In this document: positions 4,977 to 63,929 of the stretch, in pieces
Position numbering within the stretch: the stretch's first letter is position 1
How the letters are laid out: each line of letters starts with the position of its first letter
Assembly (NCBI RefSeq): GCF_037201915.1
Contig: NZ_CP147505.1
Span: forward strand, 1,426,001-1,490,000
Length of the DNA: 64,000 nt
Reading direction: 5' to 3'
DNA from: Haloplanus sp. CK5-1
Lineage (GTDB): Archaea > Halobacteriota > Halobacteria > Halobacteriales > Haloferacaceae
Notes under the pieces: model-generated
What the model was told of the DNA's origin: nothing
Seen by the model: the letters and a program-made list of their open reading frames with translations, nothing else
The model's database searches: none
Position numbers and translations under genes: made by a program

Positions 4977-6614
4977 ATGGGGTTGGTCGCGACGCTTGGC
5001 ACACTCGTTCCTGACGCCGTGGCCGTCGGCGTCCTCGTGGGGCTCACGTGGACGGCGTTCCAGTCGCGGGAACAGCCGAGTGCCGACCCGTTCATCGCGC
5101 TCCTCGCTACTCTCACGCTGTGGGCGGTATTCGCACTCGGGTCGAACCTCCCGGTGGTAGGGTCCGGAACCTCGTTGTCCGCGGTGCTGGTGTTGGGTCA
5201 GTTCGGGACGGCCCTCGTTATCCCAGGTATCTGGACGGTGTACGCACTCAGCTACACTGGACGGGGAACCGGGCTGACGTGGCGGCGAACCGCGCTGCTG
5301 GCTGGCATCGCGTCCCCGGTAGTCGTTGTCGGCGTCGTTATCGCGCTTGGTCCGCCCGAATCAGTCGTGGAGTACGTCGCCGCGTCGATGCTCGGGACCG
5401 AACTGCTGTACCTGCTGGCGTTGTTCCTGTACGCGACGTATCTCTTGGCGGACCTCAGCGGCAGCCACGCCCGCGTTTCCAACACCCAAATAGCGATACT
5501 GACGGTGGGCGTCGGAGCGCCCTACCTCGTCGGTCTCGTGGGAAACAACACGGGTCTCGCGAACGGCGCGGCGTTCGGGCTCGTTCTATCCGGCAGCTTC
5601 CTCGGTATCTCCATGCGGAAGTATCCCGTGATGACTGGCTTTCCGAAGGCGGATTACGTCGCTCGAACCCGCGTCGTCGAGACGCTACAGGAAGCTGTCG
5701 TGGTACTCGACTGGGACGACCACATTCTCGACCTCAACGAGGCGACCGTAGCGCTGTTCGACCGCTCCGCAGCGGAGATGGTCGGGGAACCAGTCCGGTC
5801 GGTTATCGACGGATTCGACCGGACCGACCTCCCCGTCGGTGACACTGGCACGGTGACGCTCCAGACGACGAAGGGGCGCCGTCAGTTCCAGTTCAGCGTC
5901 TCCGCCGTCGACGATGATGACGAACCGGTGGCCAGAACGGTACTCTTCCGGGACGTGACTGCGCGCCAGACTCGGGAGCAGCGGCTTGCAGTCCTCAACC
6001 GGGTGCTCCGCCACAACGTGCGAAACGACTTGGACGTGGTTCTCGCATACGCCGACGGGATAGCCGACGACGAACTCAGGACGGGGATCAGGGACAAGGC
6101 GACCGACCTGCTCGAACTCAGCAACAAAGCCAGAGACGCCGAAGACGTCATGACTGCGAGTACCGACTCACCCGCCCCGGTAAACGTCGCAGACGTCGCG
6201 GCGTCCGTAGTCGACCAGTTCCGAACCGAGGAGTACACTGGAGACGTAACGCTCGAGTGCCCCGACGAAGTCCTGATTTCGTCGCACCGAACCGTCCTCG
6301 AATACGTCCTCACCGAACTGGTCGAAAACGCCTTTGTGCATTCGGATGGGGCTGCGCCGCAAATCGACGTCCGTGTCCGCTCGGGGACGGACGCAGCGGC
6401 GGAACTCGTCGTGGCAGACGATGGTCCGGGACTCCCGAAACGAGAGCAAGAAATTCTCGCCGCCGGGACCGAAACACAGCTCAAACACGGGCAGGGAATC
6501 GGGCTGTGGTTCGTCAACTGGGCTGTCAATCAGCTCGGTGGCGACCTCGAGTTCCAACAGAACGACCCCGAAGGCAGTGTCGTCACTATTCGCCTTTACC
6601 GGGCAGACACGTAG
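4977..6614 (+). CDS. 7TM-PAS sensor histidine kinase
   Basis: 545 aa starting MGLVATLGTL. Residues 1 to about 215 contain seven hydrophobic segments (HisKA_7TM-type sensor module). A PAS domain follows at about 235-330 (VVLDWDDHILDLNEATVALF). The dimerisation box NRVLRHNVRNDLD near residue 343 carries the phospho-accepting His. The HATPase region has the N box ELVENAFVHSDG, the G1 box DDGPGLP and the G2 region GIGLWFVNWAVNQLGG. It is membrane bound and would pass phosphate to a response regulator encoded elsewhere. A close paralogue lies at 35801-37462 with the same architecture and near-identical PAS and ATPase motifs. Confidence 0.92.
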   Translation: MGLVATLGTLVPDAVAVGVLVGLTWTAFQSREQPSADPFIALLATLTLWAVFALGSNLPVVGSGTSLSAVLVLGQFGTALVIPGIWTVYALSYTGRGTGLTWRRTALLAGIASPVVVVGVVIALGPPESVVEYVAASMLGTELLYLLALFLYATYLLADLSGSHARVSNTQIAILTVGVGAPYLVGLVGNNTGLANGAAFGLVLSGSFLGISMRKYPVMTGFPKADYVARTRVVETLQEAVVVLDWDDHILDLNEATVALFDRSAAEMVGEPVRSVIDGFDRTDLPVGDTGTVTLQTTKGRRQFQFSVSAVDDDDEPVARTVLFRDVTARQTREQRLAVLNRVLRHNVRNDLDVVLAYADGIADDELRTGIRDKATDLLELSNKARDAEDVMTASTDSPAPVNVADVAASVVDQFRTEEYTGDVTLECPDEVLISSHRTVLEYVLTELVENAFVHSDGAAPQIDVRVRSGTDAAAELVVADDGPGLPKREQEILAAGTETQLKHGQGIGLWFVNWAVNQLGGDLEFQQNDPEGSVVTIRLYRADT

Positions 6615-10936: not shown

Positions 10937-11257
10937 ACCGATCAGCCAGAGGATCGCGGCGACACGCAGTCCGCCAGCGATCCGTCGGCGGTCGGTCGGA
11001 AGGGATTCGGCGAATCCGGACAGCGCGAACCCGACCGCCATGATGAGCGAACTAAGGGCGGATCCGTCGCGTAGAATGCCGTAGTAGAGGTAGATGCTCG
11101 ACATAACGACTGCACCGGCGAACATGACGAACGCAGTACGTCTTCCGGATGGTTCACTACAGACGACGGCTTCGATTTTGGAGGGCACGCGACGGTCTAC
11201 TCTCGCGACGATGTAAATAGGTGGAGCAAACTGGAGCGCAGCCGTAGCCACGGACAC
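10886..11257 (-). CDS. Multi-TM membrane protein
   Basis: At least 123 aa with four hydrophobic segments (FVMFAGAVVMSSIYLYYGIL, LIMAVGFALSGF, VAAILWLIGLLGLTI and an N-terminal QFAPPIYIVARV). The annotated start is a GTG at 11257, but the frame stays open upstream with sensible sequence (YVYAPFETYVSVATAAL) into the end of the preceding gene, without an ATG. The real start may therefore lie nearer 11330. No family was recognised. It follows the 11332 membrane protein gene on the same strand and may be co-transcribed with it. Confidence 0.6.
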   Translation of the reverse strand: MSVATAALQFAPPIYIVARVDRRVPSKIEAVVCSEPSGRRTAFVMFAGAVVMSSIYLYYGILRDGSALSSLIMAVGFALSGFAESLPTDRRRIAGGLRVAAILWLIGLLGLTISAPEVVLGPR

Positions 11258-45571: not shown

Positions 45572-46642
45572 GAGGGTGTCATAGAACAGTTCGCATACCA
45601 AAGAGCAGGGTGAACGCTGAGGTGGAATGAGTTCAGCGACCCTGCAAGATGATCCTTCGGTAGAATCGTTCTTCAATGCCGTGGAAACGGAGACGTTGGC
45701 GTTGTTCGAGCACCTCTCCTTCGAGTTTCTTGAAGGGTTCGACGTGTTCGCCCCGGCGGAGACGGGGCGAACACGAGATCTTGAGCCGCCCGAGATGATG
45801 CGTGGCTTTCTCCATTGCTATTACAAGAACATCTACGGTATCCGTCCGGTTGCACGAGAACTGAACAACACCGTTGTCTGGCTCAGCTGTAGCTTCGATC
45901 GACCGCCGTCGAGAGACGCGGTCGATCGATTCCTCACTGATCTTGAGCACGTTGTTGACCGGGTCTTCGACCATCTCGTCGAGCAGGCCGCCTTGCGGGG
46001 CCTGCTCGACTTGACGTATTCTATCGATTCAACCGACGTGAGAGCGATGCCCGCCGATCCAGACGCATCGAAGTGCTATGATCCAACCGATGACGAGTAC
46101 TACTACGGCTACGGCTGCACGATCGTCTCAACCGGGCAAAAGATCCCGATTGCAGCCGAGTTCACCGAGAGCAAACAAGCACCAGAAGAGACGGCGATGC
46201 GCGTCACGCGTGACGCGCTCGCCGTCGGGAAACCGATGTGGATGCTTGGAGACAGTGCCTACGACACGCTCGACTGGCACGACCACCTGCTGGCCGCAGG
46301 GGTCGTGCCAGTCGCTCCGTACAATCCACGAAACACCGACGACCCGAAAGATATCGAGTACAGGGTAGAAGACCGCATTGAAAAACACAGCAACGACGTT
46401 CAGCTGAAGCAATCAACGCTAGACGAGACGTACAACCGCCGGAGTGGCGTCGAACGAACCAACGAATCAGTCAAGGGCTGCGGCCTCGGGCGAACGCACG
46501 CCCGAGGCCGCGTCCATGCACGAGCGCAGGTGTTCCTCGCGTTGTGTCTGCGCCTCGTCGTCGCAATCACCAACTACGAACGCGGAGACAATCCGGGAAG
46601 CACAATCATCACGGTGTGAGAAGAGTTCTATGACACCCTCTT
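45572..46642 (+). mobile_element. IS4/IS5-type insertion sequence, 1071 bp
   Basis: Terminal inverted repeats gagggtgtcatagaacagttc (left) and the inverse of gaagagttctatgacaccctc (right) match at all but two positions over 21 bp. One transposase gene fills the element. No clear target duplication is visible in the immediate flanks, so the insertion may have been followed by a deletion. Confidence 0.85.
45627..46619 (+). CDS. IS4/IS5-family DDE transposase
   Basis: 330 aa. The DDE core has YSIDSTDVRAMP (first Asp), MWMLGDSAYDTLDW (second Asp) and RRSGVERTNESVKGCGLGRT (Glu, in a Y-R-E like helix). The N-terminal region (MMRGFLHCYYKNIYGIRPVA) is the DUF772-like DNA-binding part. It appears complete and likely active. 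It catalyses excision and insertion of the surrounding element by DNA strand transfer. Confidence 0.92.
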   Translation: MSSATLQDDPSVESFFNAVETETLALFEHLSFEFLEGFDVFAPAETGRTRDLEPPEMMRGFLHCYYKNIYGIRPVARELNNTVVWLSCSFDRPPSRDAVDRFLTDLEHVVDRVFDHLVEQAALRGLLDLTYSIDSTDVRAMPADPDASKCYDPTDDEYYYGYGCTIVSTGQKIPIAAEFTESKQAPEETAMRVTRDALAVGKPMWMLGDSAYDTLDWHDHLLAAGVVPVAPYNPRNTDDPKDIEYRVEDRIEKHSNDVQLKQSTLDETYNRRSGVERTNESVKGCGLGRTHARGRVHARAQVFLALCLRLVVAITNYERGDNPGSTIITV

Positions 46643-46789
46643 GTCAGTCAATCCAGGCGATGCTCACGTCCGGATGAGCGCCCTGCACCCTTCGGGGACC
46701 GAAAAACACATCGACGGTTGCCCAATGGAGTGACTGAATAGCTATAGTAACCGTTAGAATTTTTTGCTCGGAGACTGTTGTGGGTGGTA

Positions 46790-47314
46790 GTGGATCATCT
46801 CGACGAGATCTCCGTCGAGGAATTGCAAGACGCTCTCGACAACGTGGACGAAAAGAAGCCGACACAACGGCTCTTAGCGGCAATTGCGTACAAGAATGGT
46901 GTAACGCAGACCGAGCTAGCTGAGTGGTACGACGTTCAGCGACGGACCATCTACAGCTGGCTCAAGCGACTCGACACCGACGAGTCGCTTGAGCAAGCCG
47001 TGTCTGACGATAAACGAACTGGGAGAAAACGTAAACTTTCAGAATTACAGCAAGAAGAATTCGAGGAAACCGTTCACGATCCACCTGAAAAGGTCGGGAT
47101 CGACGCGCCGGCGTGGACGCCGGCGCTTGCCCAAGAGTATCTCGAAGAAACGTACGGCGTTGAGTATTCACTCCCGAGTTGTCGGCGGTTGCTGAAAGAA
47201 GCGGGATTGAGCTATCAAAAACCACGCCGTTCAGCCGCCGAGGCTGACGAAGACGAGCAAGAAGCGTTCCACGACGAGCTCAAAAAAAGCGGCGGGAAAT
47301 GGACGCCACCGTAG
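46790..47314 (+). CDS. IS630-family transposase, N-terminal (HTH) ORF
   Basis: About 174 aa from a GTG at 46790 (VDHLDEISVEELQDALDNVD). Two HTH motifs: NGVTQTELAEWYDVQRRTIY and, later, YLEETYGVEYSLPSCRRLLK, which bind the terminal repeats. The frame ends KKSGGKWTPP-stop inside the start of the DDE ORF. A run of seven A residues at 47282-47288 just before the overlap could allow a -1 shift to make a full-length transposase. Confidence 0.85.
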   Translation: MDHLDEISVEELQDALDNVDEKKPTQRLLAAIAYKNGVTQTELAEWYDVQRRTIYSWLKRLDTDESLEQAVSDDKRTGRKRKLSELQQEEFEETVHDPPEKVGIDAPAWTPALAQEYLEETYGVEYSLPSCRRLLKEAGLSYQKPRRSAAEADEDEQEAFHDELKKSGGKWTPP

Positions 47315-47790
47315 TTTGTATTGACCAAACCAAGAAATCCGTGCAAGTTGAGCCGCGTGCCGCGTGGTTTCCGCGCGGCACGCGGCCCTCGGTCGAGCTT
47401 TCAGGCCAACGTGATTGGACGTGTCTGCTGGGCGCGATCACCGAGGACGGTGATCGCTTCTTCTCTCGATTTACCGAGTACGTCACGGCCGAACACGCAA
47501 AGCATTTCATTTTAGCATTATGTAAAGAATTCGAAGATGACTTGATCGTCGTGTTGGACGGAGCGCCGTATTTCCAGGCGTCGGCCGTCACGGACCTAGC
47601 GGCCCGTGACGACCTCGCCTTCGTGACGTTACCCTCGTATTCACCGGAGTTGAATCCAGTCGAAGAATGCTGGAGACAGCTGCAAAAGGCTCTGAGCAAC
47701 CGCTTTTTTGACTCGCTTGATGAGCTAACAACAGCGATCGACACCGCTCTCGACAAACTCTCTGTTCCTAAAATAAGCAATTACTTCTAA
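47299..47790 (+). CDS. IS630-family transposase, C-terminal DDE ORF
   Basis: 163 aa with catalytic Asp in VVCIDQTKKS, second Asp in DLIVVLDGAPYFQ, and Glu in SPELNPVEECWRQLQKAL, the typical IS630 D-D-E spacing (about 35 residues between the last two). It overlaps the HTH ORF by 16 nt in the -1 frame. It may be translated from its own ATG or, more likely, as a frameshift fusion. Confidence 0.88.
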   Translation: MDATVVCIDQTKKSVQVEPRAAWFPRGTRPSVELSGQRDWTCLLGAITEDGDRFFSRFTEYVTAEHAKHFILALCKEFEDDLIVVLDGAPYFQASAVTDLAARDDLAFVTLPSYSPELNPVEECWRQLQKALSNRFFDSLDELTTAIDTALDKLSVPKISNYF

Positions 47791-48062
47791 TGCCTACTAT
47801 AGTTTCTTTATCAAGGGTGGATTGGTCCGCCCCTTCTTGATCACTACCGGCCATATGCCTGCTGTACGCCGGAGCATTAAAAAGATTAACCCCCGTCGAT
47901 GTTTATTCGCCCGCTGTATCCAATAAATCCCCTGAATTCTGCATTCTCACGCCTGAATAGCAAGAACCGACACCGAAGTACATCTAGTGGGAGACCCCCC
48001 GTCATCGATGTGTAACGCAGAATCGGCGGCCTTCGTGTGGATTTGCGTATCTGTGATTGGAC

Positions 48063-48148
48063 CTATAGTAGCCTTTGTAAGTCATCACACACCTGATCGC
48101 ATGACTGCGTTCGATCAGGTGTGCGGACAGTTACAAACGCTACTATAG
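48063..48148. mobile_element. 86-bp palindromic MITE-like element, copy 2
   Basis: Inverted copy of the element at 35667-35752, same length and nearly identical, again with CTAG-type borders (ctatag at each end). It lies inside the repeat-rich region, between the first and second origin-like boxes. Confidence 0.78.
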
Positions 48149-48255
48149 TTGTTCCCCTCCCCATTCTCGAAGTGTAAGCCGCACGTCTGACACCCCCCGT
48201 CATCGAAGTGTAAATATAGGCTCGACAGCCCCCCGTCATCGATGTGAAAATCAGT

Positions 48256-48453
48256 TCAATACTCGACTCTCTTGCTCTCTACGTGCCAATCACATTCTGG
48301 AGTGTCCTCGAGTTCTAGTCCGGTGAACGCCTCGGGATCATTCTTGAAACGCTTCGCGAAGACTCTCGGATCGATATAATCTCGCCCGAGGAAGTCGAAT
48401 CGGTCGTGAAAGCGCGGACTTGAAACGAAAGTTGAGTGCGGTCCGTTCCTCAA
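48256..48453 (-). CDS. Hypothetical protein or gene remnant
   Basis: 65 aa from a TTG codon. The C-terminal 50 residues (DRFDFLGRDYIDPRVFAKRF, FTGLELEDTPECDWHVESKR) look like real protein. The frame is open further upstream through one of the repeat boxes without a start codon, so it may be the 3' end of a truncated gene. No family was recognised. Confidence 0.3.
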   Translation of the reverse strand: MRNGPHSTFVSSPRFHDRFDFLGRDYIDPRVFAKRFKNDPEAFTGLELEDTPECDWHVESKRVEY

Positions 48454-48836
48454 CCGACCACGGAGGGGACACCCCTCTATCGATGTGTATTCAAGCTGGA
48501 TAAGGATGCTATCTACAGAAATTGACGATATTGAGCTGACAGCACCTGAGAACTGACACGGTGACTAACGACAATCACCGGTCGTCTCGGTACATTTCGA
48601 ACTCGATCAAACTCCATCTATTTTGTAGAACACCCCCCCGCTATCGATGTGTTCGTCAGACCGCCTTGTTTCCACACACCCCTCTATCGATGTGTTCGTC
48701 AGGTCGCCTTGCTTCCATACACCCCTCTATTGATGTGTTCGCCAGATCGCCGTGCTTCCATACACCCCTCTATCGATGTGTATCCACGAAATTCGCCCCG
48801 TGATCGAAATCGTGATTGTAACATGACGAGCGTGTC

Positions 48837-49160
48837 CTACTCATCGGGATTGACTGGGCCCTTGTACTCAGAACAGATTTTTTCGCCGTCCCGCCACTGC
48901 CAGTAGTAGTAGCGGTTGTCGTTGATCTCCTTGATCGTGATTGTGGCCTTCGACGGGACATCATCCGGAAGGTCATCCGGCCGGTCGTCGATCTCGTCCT
49001 CCTCCGACTCCTCTTCGAGACGGGCCTCGCGAGCTTTGTGCTCAGCTAGTTCTTCAGCGTAACGGGCAACGTGCTGGAGCTGGTCTGAAGAGTACCCGTT
49101 GAGTGTGTTGACGATCTCTGTTGGGAGTTCCGTCGGCGGCGTTGGTGGCTCATATGACAT
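48837..49160 (-). CDS. DUF6788-like small protein
   Basis: 107 aa from MSYEPPTPPTELPTEIVNTL. An N-terminal helix region (SSDQLQHVARYAEELAEHKA), an acidic low-complexity middle, and a C-terminal YYYWQWRDGEKICSEYKGPV domain match a family widespread in haloarchaeal plasmids and accessory DNA. The function is unknown. A decayed copy is at 56582-56804. A 9-bp inverted repeat lies just upstream of the start. Confidence 0.75.
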   Translation of the reverse strand: MSYEPPTPPTELPTEIVNTLNGYSSDQLQHVARYAEELAEHKAREARLEEESEEDEIDDRPDDLPDDVPSKATITIKEINDNRYYYWQWRDGEKICSEYKGPVNPDE

Positions 49161-58975: not shown

Positions 58976-59834
58976 AGTCGCCCTCCCGAGAGTCGGGCAA
59001 GCAACCCGGTTCGGTACTGTTCGACGATATCCCCGGTTTCGCGTTCGAGCACGACGATCTCGTCCGACCGCATGAGCCGCGTCCCGTGGACGACGACATA
59101 CGCCGAATTGGTACTGATGCGCATCGAGCGGAAACTGAGCGAATTCGGGAGCGTGTCTTCGACTTTCGGCTGTAGTGTGTCGTTCTCGGCCAACTCCTGA
59201 CAGGTTCGACACTCTCCATTGTCCACTGCCGCCGTCGCGACCTGTTGTCGGCACGTGGTACACGTAGTCTGGTGCTCCGAACACACCGCTCTCTCCAGGA
59301 TCGGGTCGGTGTGAGCGTGTTCGGAACACAGGTTCGCGTCGTCGACGACGCATTGCTCCAAGTGATTGTTACAGCGTGGCTGGTCCTGGTCGGTCTCGTG
59401 TCCGCAGACGCTGCACGTCGCGATGTGCTCGTGACAGTGCCGGTCCTCGTCGTCGACACATTCGGTGCTGTCCGCGACACAGATCGGGTCGTTGCAGGTG
59501 CCACACCGGGTGTGGTGGTCGGCACAGAAGCTCTCCTTGCAGTGGATACAGTCCGCACCGTCCGAGAGGCACGTCGTTTCACCGCATGCATCGCAGGTTT
59601 TCCGGTCGGTGTGGCAGACGGGGTTCCCGCAGTCGTCACATTCCGCTGAATGATCCGTACAGAACGTGAAGTCACACTCCACGCAGGTGTCCGAATGAGT
59701 TGCACAATACGGTTCGTCACAGGTGAGACACGTCTCGGTGTGGCTCATGCAGTGGGGTCGCTCACAGGTAGTACACGCCATCGCATGCTCGTCGCACAAC
59801 AGATCACCGCAGTGAGTACAGGTTTTGACATGGT
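58972..59834 (-). pseudogene. C-terminal part of the giant zinc-repeat protein, cut off by ISH3-type insertion
   Basis: Continues the repeat series in the same frame as the 61341 gene: VKTCTHCGDLLCDEHAMACT, CERPHCMSHTETCLTCDEPY and so on, about twelve more units. The final 60 residues form a non-Cys beta domain (FRSMRISTNSAYVVVHGTRL, VVLERETGDIVEQYRTGLLA). The apparent start MLPPPSREW at 59871 is made of IS sequence and is artefactual. Without the IS and one copy of accat the upstream codons join directly (CEDH then VKTC). The stop overlaps the start of the Mrr-like gene by ATGA. Confidence 0.85.
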
Positions 59835-61346
59835 CGCTAGTTGTCCACTCTCTTGATGGCGGCGGCAACAAGAGTCCGGTCTAACACGGTAAGGACGCTG
59901 ATACGAGACGAAGTACACATCTGACGCCACGGAGAGTTGAGGAAGAGTCACAAATCTGGATTGTTTTGGCTGTAGTTGTCGTTCAGACTGATCTCCGAAG
60001 ACAGCTGTCGCTGTTCGCCAGCCTCGCTTCGCCGAAGCGAGGCGGCTCAACCGAGTCCGTGTTCGTATCCTGCTGGCAGTCCTTCTCCGTTAGTCCGGTA
60101 CTTCTCTTTCCAGCCGAGTTCGTCGTCTAACACCCGTTCGATCCCGTGCAAAAACGCGTCACCAAACGCGAATGTTTTCGGAAGTGCTCGCCCGCCCCGC
60201 CGTGGTCGGGCGAGCACGGCCCACTGTAACACGAGCCACAACTGCTCTAACAGAAACCCCACGCCCACGTAGAACAGCCGGATTGTCGTCGATGGCGTTG
60301 TTGTCAGGGCACGCGCTTCTCGGAACTTCTCGTAGCTCTTCTCTATCCGTGAACGCTTGTTGTAGGTCGTAGCGACTTGCGCGGGCGTGCGGTCTTCCAG
60401 ACCGTACGCCGCGTATCCTGTCGCTTTCACACCAGACTTTCCGCGGTCACCGTTCTGATAGGTAACGTTCACCGCCAGTGGATACGTCTGTTCGTGCTCT
60501 TTCCCTTCGCAAATCGTCTCTTCGGTCATGTGTGACGCGGCCTTGGAGAGTTTCTTCCGGAGCGAGTCTTTCCGGGTTATGACCGGAAAGACTGGCGGTG
60601 CTGTCTCCCGAAGAATACCGATTAACTCCCCGACAAAGGCGTCCCTGTCCATGAGGATCTGGTCGGTCTCGAATGGGTATGTTTCGACGCGGGCGAGCAC
60701 GCGCTCGACCGCGTCGGCCTTGCTGTCCTCGCCGTCAACTGGTTCAACCGCCAGTGTGAGTGGCTTTCCCTGCGCGATGACGAACGCAGTACAGTACCGG
60801 TGACACTTCGTGGTTCCATCTCGTGCTTCCATTCTCCTGAACTCGTCCTCGTCGTCTGGATGACCGTGGAACGGATTGTCCATGAAGTCCAGACAGATGG
60901 TTCTCGACCCGCCGCGGTCGAGAACCGTCATCGCCACCAGTGCGAGGATATCGTTGACAGCATCAAGCATCGGCTCTTTCTCCAAGGTGTGCAACCAGTC
61001 CATCACTGGCTCGCGGTTTGGCGTGTCCTCAGTGTTCGTCGTGACACCGTTGACGGAGGTTGTGTCAACAGCAGCTCGTAAGACGACTTCCATGATTTCC
61101 TCGGAATCGAGGCCGGAGCCCTCGATTCCTTCCATCGGTATCAGCTCAAGCAACTCCATGCTAAGAGACTTCAACTGGCTGCTCGAAATGTACTCGTCCG
61201 GATCTGTGAGGATGCGTTTGAGTCTTGGGAACTCCATCACACACAGGAATCCGGGCAGCGGCTGAATCAGGCGACTGATTCAGTCGCGTCATTCTAATCA
61301 CTACGTGTCAGAAACTGGTCTCTTGAGCCAGAGTGGACAACTAGCG
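59835..61346 (-). mobile_element. ISH3-type insertion sequence, 1512 bp, with 5-bp target duplication
   Basis: Both ends carry the 17-bp inverted repeat cgctagttgtccactct. The flanks have direct repeats of atggt (59830-59834 and 61347-61351, accat on the coding strand), a 5-bp target duplication as expected for ISH3-like elements. It lies inside the zinc-repeat gene in the same orientation. A single transposase gene (60047-61237) fills it. Because the duplication is intact, the insertion is probably recent. Confidence 0.92.
60047..61237 (-). CDS. ISH3-family transposase
   Basis: 396 aa from the ATG at 61237. Catalytic Asp candidates are in SRTICLDFMDNPFHGHPDDE and ETDQILMDRDAFVGELIG. The Glu helix is NKRSRIEKSYEKFREARALT, then TTPSTTIRLFYVGVGFLLEQ. 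The closing ARPRRGGRALPKTF resembles the TPRRGGRRL end of ISH3-type transposases. The gene looks complete. Confidence 0.9.
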   Translation of the reverse strand: MEFPRLKRILTDPDEYISSSQLKSLSMELLELIPMEGIEGSGLDSEEIMEVVLRAAVDTTSVNGVTTNTEDTPNREPVMDWLHTLEKEPMLDAVNDILALVAMTVLDRGGSRTICLDFMDNPFHGHPDDEDEFRRMEARDGTTKCHRYCTAFVIAQGKPLTLAVEPVDGEDSKADAVERVLARVETYPFETDQILMDRDAFVGELIGILRETAPPVFPVITRKDSLRKKLSKAASHMTEETICEGKEHEQTYPLAVNVTYQNGDRGKSGVKATGYAAYGLEDRTPAQVATTYNKRSRIEKSYEKFREARALTTTPSTTIRLFYVGVGFLLEQLWLVLQWAVLARPRRGGRALPKTFAFGDAFLHGIERVLDDELGWKEKYRTNGEGLPAGYEHGLG

Positions 61347-63929
61347 ATGGTCTTCGCAGACTCCCTCACCGCACGCGTCACAGGGAACGATGTGGGAGGT
61401 ACAGTGTAGCTTTCCGTCGACGGTACACGTGGCTTGGTCCGTTTGACAGAGGACGTCGTCGCAGGTCGCACAGGTCACCCTGTCCTCCTGACAGACGTGG
61501 TCGCCGCATCGATCGCAGGCTTCCAGATGCTCGGGCGTGAACAGCGTTCCGCAGTCAGCACACTCGGCTGCGTGGTCTACGCATCGGACCTCATCGGTAT
61601 CGTCGGTGGTGACGGAGTGAGCCGGGCAAAACGCATCGTCACAGACGGCACAGGTCCGGTTGTGCTCGGCACAAACCGTCTCTCCGCTATGGCTACATGT
61701 CCCTTCGTGGTGCTGACAGACGACACCGTCACAGTACGCGCAGTCGGTGACGAGGTCGGCACAGTAGACCTCCTCGCATTGAGCACACGTCTCCGCGTGC
61801 GTGTCACAGAGGGCGGCATCGTGGTCCGAACACCGGGATCGGTCGGCCGGGCAGAGGACGTCCCCACATGTCGCACACGTCTCGCTGTGCTCGGGACACA
61901 GGGCCTTCTCACACGTGTCGCACGTCTCTGCGTGTGCCTCGCAGGTGACCGCGTCACAGACGGCACAATGTATCCGGTCCGGTTCACAGATATCGTCGCC
62001 ACAGGTCGCACACGCTTCGAGATGATCCGTACAGAACGGGTCGTCACACAGGTCACAGCGGTCGGTGTGAGTCGGGCAAACGAGGCCGTCACACTTCATA
62101 CAGACCGCCGAGTCGGTGGTACAGACGATCTCGTCACAGATTCGACACTCACCACGGTCGGTCTCACAAATTTCCTGACCGCAGGTTCCACACGCCGCCA
62201 AGTGTTGGGTCCCGAAGGAATCCGCACAGATCTCACACTCGTTGCTGTGCGTGTCACACAGCGCCTCACTGCAACCTGCGCAGTCGACAGCGTGGTCGGT
62301 ACAGATCGTGTCCCCGCAGGTGCCACAGGTCGTGGAGTCCGTTGCACAGACGCTGCGGTCACAGGTGGCACACGTGGAGAGGTGGGCGCTCCCGAAGTGG
62401 TTCATGCAAATTTCGCATTGCTCGACTGCTTCGGCACAATGATGCCCGCCACACCCGTCACAGGCGACGGCGTCGTCGTGACAGCGAGTATCACCGCACG
62501 TCTCACAGGTCACTCGGTCGTCGGGACACAGTTCGACGTCACAGGCGGTACAGGACCGGAGATGGGTCTCACAGATCGTGTCCGTACACTCGTCACAGGT
62601 GTCGGAGTGAGCGTCGCAGTGGAGGTCCCCGTCGACACGGCACCGGTGGAGGTGCGAGTCACCGTGGAACGTCCCACAACTGGCACACGCCTCACCGCAG
62701 GCCAAACACGTCGCCTGCTCAGTCTTCGCACACGTTTCGGTGTGGCTCGTACACACCGCTCGGCCACACTCGTCGCAGACCGAGCCACATCGGTGACATT
62801 CGACGCGACCGCACAACTCGCAGGCTGCGACCGGTGTCTCACAGTTCGGACAGCCGGTTTCACCGCACTCCGTACAGACGTTCAGACAGCCAGCACAGAC
62901 GACGCTCCCACATGTGCACACTTGGGGCCGGGTCGTTCGATCGAACGAGGTCTCACACGTCGCACACCCGAATTCGATCGTTTCCCCCGTTGCAGGTGCA
63001 TATCGAGCCGACGCGGTCCCGGAGCGTTCACCGTCGCCGATCGAGAGTCTGAGGGTGCCGACATCGTGGGAGAGGAGCGTCATCCCGACGAGGGAGATGT
63101 TCACGGTGACGTCGTGTCGGTCGACCATGTCCTCGATCTCGTCCCGCTCGCGTTTGTCGAACGATTTCCGTCGTTGACGGAGCGCGGCACCGTGGAGTTC
63201 CTCACCGAGTTCGTCCCGCCGTTGGTCGTACAGCTCACTGATTTCCTCGGCCCGAGTTGCTGCGGCCTCGGTCGCTTCGTTTAGTAATTCGGCTGCATCG
63301 GCTTCGATACGCCGTTCGATTTCCTCGATGGCCGTGGCGTATCGCTGTTCAATCGTCTCAGCTGCTGGGTCGATGTCGGCCGGTTCGTGGGATCGGCTGA
63401 GCGAACTGGCGTGTGCCAGTAACCGGTCGGTGAGGGCTGGTTGGGGACTGCCGTTTGCAAGGTCGAGCGTGACGGTTTCGAACCGTTCTCGGTGAAACGA
63501 CGAGACACTCTCCATCTCGATCAAAAAATGGAACGCGACGGCGTCAGCGGTCTGTTCGGGGTCGAACTCCTCGATCGTTACTGTCGTTTCGGAGACGTCG
63601 AGCACGTCGGGCAGCGTAACCTGCATATCCGCCGCTGTGAGGTACAGTTTCCCGATCGAGATATCCTCTTTCACCAGTTCGAGTAACTGGTTGAACGCGA
63701 GGGAGCCGGGTTGAACGAGCAGTTCGTCACGACCCGGTTGCTGATCTTTCGGATCGAACACGACGGCGACGTCACGGGACTCGGCGAGATTCCGGAGCGG
63801 TTCCGGGAGTGTGACGTGCCACGAATCCGCGTCGCGTCTGTTGACGTCGCCGCCGTACGCTTCGATCGTCGTCGCAGTGAATCGACGGACCTCCAACCGA
63901 TTGAGCGTCCCGACGTCGTCGACGCTCAT
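61341..63929 (-). CDS. Giant Cys/His-repeat (zinc-binding) protein, N-terminal 862 codons before IS insertion
   Basis: 862 codons as it now stands, ending with CEDHR-stop, where CGC TAG come from the IS end. Residues 1 to about 190 have two beta-rich segments (TLPDVLDVSETTVTIEEFDP). About 200-290 is coiled coil (RYATAIEEIERRIEADAAEL, RKSFDKRERDEIEDMVDRHD). From about residue 320 the protein is a tandem array of units C-x2-C-x4-C-x2-[H/D]-x3, often alternating His and Asp as the fourth ligand (CDTCEKALCPEHSE, then CATCGDVLCPADRSR). There are about 33 units here and about 45 in the uninterrupted 1146-residue protein. It should bind many zinc ions and act as an extended scaffold or nucleic-acid or protein binder. 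The start overlaps the upstream stop by ATGA. Confidence 0.85.
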   Translation of the reverse strand: MSVDDVGTLNRLEVRRFTATTIEAYGGDVNRRDADSWHVTLPEPLRNLAESRDVAVVFDPKDQQPGRDELLVQPGSLAFNQLLELVKEDISIGKLYLTAADMQVTLPDVLDVSETTVTIEEFDPEQTADAVAFHFLIEMESVSSFHRERFETVTLDLANGSPQPALTDRLLAHASSLSRSHEPADIDPAAETIEQRYATAIEEIERRIEADAAELLNEATEAAATRAEEISELYDQRRDELGEELHGAALRQRRKSFDKRERDEIEDMVDRHDVTVNISLVGMTLLSHDVGTLRLSIGDGERSGTASARYAPATGETIEFGCATCETSFDRTTRPQVCTCGSVVCAGCLNVCTECGETGCPNCETPVAACELCGRVECHRCGSVCDECGRAVCTSHTETCAKTEQATCLACGEACASCGTFHGDSHLHRCRVDGDLHCDAHSDTCDECTDTICETHLRSCTACDVELCPDDRVTCETCGDTRCHDDAVACDGCGGHHCAEAVEQCEICMNHFGSAHLSTCATCDRSVCATDSTTCGTCGDTICTDHAVDCAGCSEALCDTHSNECEICADSFGTQHLAACGTCGQEICETDRGECRICDEIVCTTDSAVCMKCDGLVCPTHTDRCDLCDDPFCTDHLEACATCGDDICEPDRIHCAVCDAVTCEAHAETCDTCEKALCPEHSETCATCGDVLCPADRSRCSDHDAALCDTHAETCAQCEEVYCADLVTDCAYCDGVVCQHHEGTCSHSGETVCAEHNRTCAVCDDAFCPAHSVTTDDTDEVRCVDHAAECADCGTLFTPEHLEACDRCGDHVCQEDRVTCATCDDVLCQTDQATCTVDGKLHCTSHIVPCDACGEGVCEDHR

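Follow-up and report, generated by a model that had tools for sequence, protein, structure and literature searches.

Does a cluster of G-string boxes in the chromosome of Haloplanus sp. CK5-1, lying apart from any intact initiator gene, represent a replication origin, or is it the remainder of one? Haloarchaea constantly gain and lose cdc6-linked origins, and the intermediate steps of this turnover are rarely visible. The cluster is contained in a stretch of 64,000 nucleotides, the whole of which is referred to here as the window. We conclude that the array is very probably a chromosomal relic of two plasmid replication-control systems, the scar of an initiator exchange on an integrated plasmid, in which case the locus preserves one such intermediate step.

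Architecture of the box array

The array comprises nine boxes, eight clear and one decayed, which extend from position 47995 to 48788 and all lie on the plus strand. The initial annotation described eight boxes of the same orientation; the shared strand holds, but the count rises to nine with the decayed box at 48159. The boxes are listed below as origin recognition boxes (ORBs) of two types.

47997–48012, plus strand: B-type ORB 1, CCCCGTCATCGATGTG; same box at position 5178 of loci L172 and L173
48159–48174, plus strand: B-type ORB 2, decayed, two mismatches; aligned with position 5259 of both L172 and L173
48195–48210, plus strand: B-type ORB 3; box search and alignment to plasmid loci
48231–48246, plus strand: B-type ORB 4; box search and alignment to plasmid loci
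48472–48487, plus strand: A-type ORB 1, CCCCTCTATCGATGTG; box search and alignment to the cdc6-A flank
48636–48651, plus strand: A-type ORB 2, opening the 43-bp series; aligns with position 10970 of locus L050
48679–48694, plus strand: A-type ORB 3, 43-bp series
48722–48737, plus strand: A-type ORB 4, 43-bp series, one T change
48765–48780, plus strand: A-type ORB 5; aligned to the final L050 box, at 11013

All nine boxes fit the form CCCCnnnATCGAtGTG, and a search allowing at most one mismatch to CCCCNNNATCGATGTG returns eight boxes on the plus strand and none on the minus strand. Mononucleotide shuffles of the 800-bp box stretch average 0.001 boxes against the eight observed, a count never matched by dinucleotide shuffles of the whole window. 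The four final boxes are spaced by 43, 43 and 43 bp, the exact period first reported for them, and the box stretch has a GC content of 51% compared with 60% for the window, in agreement with the AT-rich setting described initially. No second cluster of the box exists in the 3.24-Mb genome (a single contig of 3,243,851 bp), where the box is otherwise seen only as scattered singletons.

The boxes do not share one common sequence, as had been proposed, but fall into two subtypes, CCCCCCGTCATCGAtGTGTAA in the first four and ACACCCCTCTATCGATGTGT in the last five. A single origin was rejected as the source of the array, because the two subtypes map to two cdc6 families, A and B. The nine boxes are ORBs with G-strings, of the kind repeated at halophile origins, that derive from two fused plasmid-type orc1/cdc6 origins; the Cdc6 proteins of the A and B families would presumably bind their respective boxes. 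The original attribution of the G-strings to Orc1/Cdc6 boxes is borne out by named plasmids of Haloplanus and other haloarchaea, on which both box types flank cdc6 genes.

The left half corresponds to a family-B origin

The left half of the array matches the flank of an orc1/cdc6 gene of ~430 aa (cdc6-B) that is found on plasmids of Haloplanus, Halorubrum, Halopiger, the halophilic archaeon DL31 and others. This segment and the two mobile elements associated with it are as follows.

46745–47799, plus strand: IS630-family insertion element, TA-flanked, with two overlapping ORFs (46778–47314 and 47299–47790)
47800–48274, plus strand: direct-array side of a plasmid origin of family B, lying 5′ of the gene; blastn and alignment to plasmid loci
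48066–48145, no strand assigned: MITE, an inverted repeat with the terminal sequence TAGTAGC.TTTGTAA, inserted at a TA in a spacer of the B array

An 87% blastn match to 47800–48274 lies on plasmid NZ_CP098520.1 of Haloplanus sp. HW8-1, beside its orc1/cdc6 gene, and further matches occur on BOL3-1 p117, pHALXA02 and phalar01. At the plasmid loci cdc6-B starts 110–130 nt to the left of the equivalent of window position 47800, and the gene is missing in the window, where the TA on the right of the IS630 element is exactly the point at which homology with the B locus ends. The right flank of this element, TA followed by GTTTCTTTATC, matches the plasmid sequence TA followed by GTTCCTTCATC; the left flank has no match to cdc6-B. 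Both ORFs of the element match the IS630 model NF033545, and a match to PF13358 (DDE_3) was also obtained. In plasmid pNATPE01 of Natrinema pellirubrum (L174, 2067–4864), cdc6-B is split after approximately codon 22, and an ISH3 transposase gene lies between the two parts.

Plasmid homologues of the B array that lack the MITE confirm it as an insertion between the first two clear boxes, where it had been placed. Its limits follow from the MITE-free site in L172, where a TA lies between GATTGGACT and GTTGTTCC; the window has a TA on both sides of the insertion, and removal of the MITE yields a box spacing of 80 bp, compared with 81 bp in the plasmids. The ends of the MITE resemble those of IS630, and the TA target duplication and related terminal repeats that characterize IS630/Tc1-type elements and their MITEs are present. 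Two other mobile elements were observed in the window, an IS1182/IS5-like element at 45573–46660 with about two dozen near-identical genomic copies and an element at 59830–61352 with ~17 near-identical copies in the genome.

The right half contains a cdc6-A stub and its downstream array

The right half (48296–48830) consists of a 3′ stub of an orc1/cdc6 gene of family A followed by the downstream direct ORB array of that family.

48296–48435, plus strand: decayed 3′ end of a family-A orc1/cdc6 gene, last ~43 codons, with a frameshift and two in-frame stops

The stub is detected by tblastn with an E value of 2e-11, and the region 48296–48490 shows 87% DNA identity to H. rubicundus cdc6-A, at its 3′ end and in the adjoining flank. 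The earlier statement that no orc1/cdc6 gene is adjacent is thus correct with respect to an intact gene, and the boxes are indeed orphaned, but it overlooked this stub. Changes in the stub are distributed over the three codon positions as 4/6/4, compared with 0/1/11 in a functional congener copy, and this even spread indicates that the stub decays neutrally. Further downstream, 48469–48695 matches the downstream array of cdc6-A at 81%, the 164-bp and 43-bp spacings included; the window has lost 103 bp comprising a box with its spacer, and the 43-bp unit has been multiplied there.

The A-type box is found on both sides of a gene of ~493 aa, cdc6-A, in six congeners and in one genome of another family, and intact copies of the array flank cdc6-A in Haloplanus and dozens of other haloarchaea. 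Approximately 55 of 72 named loci contain A boxes, mostly in a '++--' arrangement upstream and as direct '++' repeats downstream of cdc6-A, and a reversed control pattern scored near zero; A boxes are essentially absent in a cdc6 subfamily of ~70% identity. Among the plasmid records that match the A array, 41 of 42 contain cdc6-A. In the genome with a 488,918-bp contig, taken to be Haloarcula hispanica, the search for family A gave no member, the best match reaching 52%.

Repeats unrelated to replication, such as insertion-sequence ends, virus termini or transcription operators, might be suspected from the IS and MITE that adjoin the array and from a few isolated box pairs away from cdc6. We attach virtually no probability to this reading, since the boxes track cdc6-A and cdc6-B over dozens of loci, the sole viral contig with an exact 20-mer carries a single copy, and no matching phage record was found. 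A search of viral contigs for the 36-bp-type B array returned none. IS ends and virus termini were accordingly ruled out by the phage-record and viral-contig searches and by the linkage to the two genes; the boxes are not confined to non-origin places, the observation that the initial annotation named as contrary to an origin, but flank plasmid cdc6 genes. The isolated pairs consist of A-type boxes at distances of 38–45 bp; both are intergenic and have no cdc6 in their vicinity (L057, 8162–8215; L215, 4008–4068).

Genomic setting

The region at 36.0–44.8 kb of the window is a chromosomal block conserved among congeners, and that at 51–57 kb resembles plasmid contigs of congeners. In Haloplanus G003, the A origin has the genes of window 53.5–54.8 kb as neighbours within 5–8 kb, but their order is swapped. 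Together, these three observations place the array in a variable, plasmid-derived region. An empty integration site could not be defined, as the sequence after the 36.0–44.8 kb block is not conserved among congeners, and the intact A origin of G006 (at 1.425 Mb) was discarded as a positional equivalent of the window after its gene order showed no real synteny. The array is followed by a small ORF.

48837–49160, minus strand: 107-aa ORF; in many haloarchaea a neighbour of direct ORB arrays of several cdc6 families, A and B included

This ORF has no match to a Pfam or NCBIfam family. Its homologues next to the arrays are 64–87% identical, and although it most resembles the B-associated copies (83–87%), it accompanies both families; the encoded protein is possibly a replication-control partner.

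The array is not an origin by published criteria

Published criteria for an origin are inverted ORBs and an adjacent cdc6 (PMC3528665), and published genetics shows that origins depend on their own adjacent cdc6 (PMC3936714). Neither feature is found at the array, which is therefore not an origin by these criteria: the nine boxes share one strand, with no inverted ORB pair flanking an unwinding region, and directly adjacent there is only the 43-codon stub with its stops. Inverted ORB sets are present in the intact relatives of both the A and B loci, and since neither inverted pair survives in the window, the array is not a complete origin. A replication-competent 'orphan origin', as initially suggested, is unlikely; what the array holds instead is the accessory, direct-repeat half of each of two origins that used different initiators. 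The accompanying suggestion of an integrated plasmid or abandoned origin is right; the boxes come from plasmid-type replicons, and both initiator genes have been lost.

A search of this genome revealed no cdc6-A or cdc6-B gene, and an order-wide search for cdc6-A likewise found none in it. Several other orc1/cdc6 genes are present, the closest of which, at 1,752,515, reaches 54% against A and 59% against B; the ORBs on its flanks read CACCCCCCGTGTGCGANATGAA, unlike the array boxes. The distance from the array to the nearest orc1/cdc6 is ~278 kb, and that gene belongs to another family. These other initiators, together with the intact ORBs and the AT-richness of the array relative to the window, speak for a functional origin fired in trans. 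Such firing is nonetheless highly improbable, given the missing inverted pair, the confinement of this box cluster to a single place in the genome, the different ORB core of the closest Cdc6 and the published tests that tie origins to an adjacent cdc6 (PMC3936714). A 69-aa N-terminal fragment of another orc1/cdc6-like gene was observed at ~855 kb of the genome (L067, 10267–10476, minus strand).

A probable scar of initiator exchange and its recurrence

The array is best explained by the bringing together of two orc1/cdc6 replicator-initiator systems, A and B, most likely through the swapping of one plasmid's initiator/origin cassette for that of another. Such a swap would leave the C-terminal stub of cdc6-A and the downstream direct ORB array of A beside a B-type origin. 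Later steps would be the arrival of the replicon in the chromosome, loss of the cdc6-B side at the IS630 insertion, and entry of the MITE. Without a cognate initiator, the array would stay silent as long as no plasmid brings one in.

The insertion of an A fragment into a B locus would look similar to a cassette exchange. The small ORF was considered as proof of such an insertion and dropped, as it accompanies A arrays too. Among the loci retrieved, none has intact A and B origins within 11 kb of each other. Against the relic explanation as a whole stand the only partial flanking synteny, with the swapped order in G003, the failure to find an integration boundary with att sites, and a comparable junction in G319 where the stub joins the other side of cdc6-B.

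Similar junctions exist elsewhere: A C-terminal stubs with A boxes beside the locus of another initiator also occur in two other haloarchaeal families. G319, from one of these, contains an intact cdc6-B origin followed by codons 451–494 of cdc6-A, two A boxes and the small ORF; G310, from a third family, contains a full cdc6 of another kind followed by codons 430–494 of cdc6-A, four A boxes and the small ORF. The junctions of G319 and the window are not the same event, as the stub lies on opposite sides of cdc6-B and its start codons differ. The window places the accessory arrays of two incompatible initiator systems side by side and retains a stub of one initiator; junctions of this type exist in other families too. 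Presumably, exchange of the initiator/origin cassette happens repeatedly among replicons, with the previous downstream array staying in place.

Several related loci were also recorded. Independent C-terminal stubs of cdc6-A with A boxes are joined to loci of other initiators in L265 (4183–5749) and L232 (2261–6408). Stubs resembling the cdc6-A C-terminus, with neither an intact gene nor recognisable boxes, occur in L263, L264 and L266 (a Halopenitus persicus plasmid, a Haladaptatus plasmid and G246). A cdc6-A on a 3.48-Mb Haloarcula contig (L267, 4720–7215) has an insert of ~1.07 kb and intact flanking ORBs.

Possible retention of the array as a Cdc6 sink

By analogy with published work, the direct arrays of intact plasmids probably hold the origin in check by serving as sinks for Cdc6. 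In H. hispanica the ORB-rich region that follows cdc6E (oriC2D) has no origin activity and restrains its origin, and when this cluster stays behind in the chromosome without its origin and cdc6, it lowers the replication of an incoming plasmid that carries both (PMC3936714). The array could therefore persist by titrating the initiators of incoming A- and B-type plasmids, the chromosome or the source plasmid interfering in this way with competitors. Both surviving halves are direct arrays, the A array has grown in the window into a series with a 43-bp period, and scars of this kind are seen in three haloarchaeal families. The boxes have also changed less than their surroundings, with 2/57 changes in A boxes against 17/125 in the neutrally decaying stub (p = 0.03) and 40/186 in the spacers (p = 0.0006), 3/95 against 14/112 when all five A boxes are counted (p = 0.012), and 2/82 in B boxes against 27/245 in the spacers (p = 0.01), although these statistics are small and duplicated boxes do not count as independent. 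The branch includes time before the gene loss, when the boxes were surely constrained, and gene conversion among boxes could preserve them too. Moreover, the published effect was obtained with 11 ORBs, compared with five and four per initiator in the window, and family A apparently does not include cdc6E of H. hispanica, which makes the titration precedent an analogy. The small tests, the non-independent boxes and the constraint before gene loss keep the probability of titration low, and we regard it as an improbable reason for the persistence of the array. It is similarly doubtful that stub-plus-array scars form a recurrent class in which the old array is kept as a decoy for the initiators of competitors, the window array still acting as one. 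The locus offers a direct test of leftover ORB arrays as initiator sinks, that is, as determinants of plasmid incompatibility.

Comparison with known systems

The array is homologous to intact plasmid origin loci of the type described for haloarchaeal orc1/cdc6-linked plasmid and minichromosome origins (Wu et al. 2012, PMC3528665), which it resembles in ORB sequence, G-string, spacing and a neighbouring cdc6, here a stub. In contrast to those origins, it has no functional cdc6 or inverted ORB pair, and arrays of two initiator families stand in a row. With oriC2D of Haloarcula hispanica (PMC3936714) it shares an ORB cluster directly 3′ of cdc6: in the window the cdc6-A stub is followed on its 3′ side by the A boxes, and relatives have the cluster 3′ of an intact cdc6-A. 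The initiator in the window is apparently of a different family, its cognate gene is dead, and titration would apply by analogy. A third parallel is the loss of origins in variable chromosomal regions of Haloarcula, where cdc6D origins have been disrupted or replaced via transposase insertion and coupled deletion (PMC4441112). Those origins involve a single family, whereas the window fuses two families and preserves their accessory arrays.
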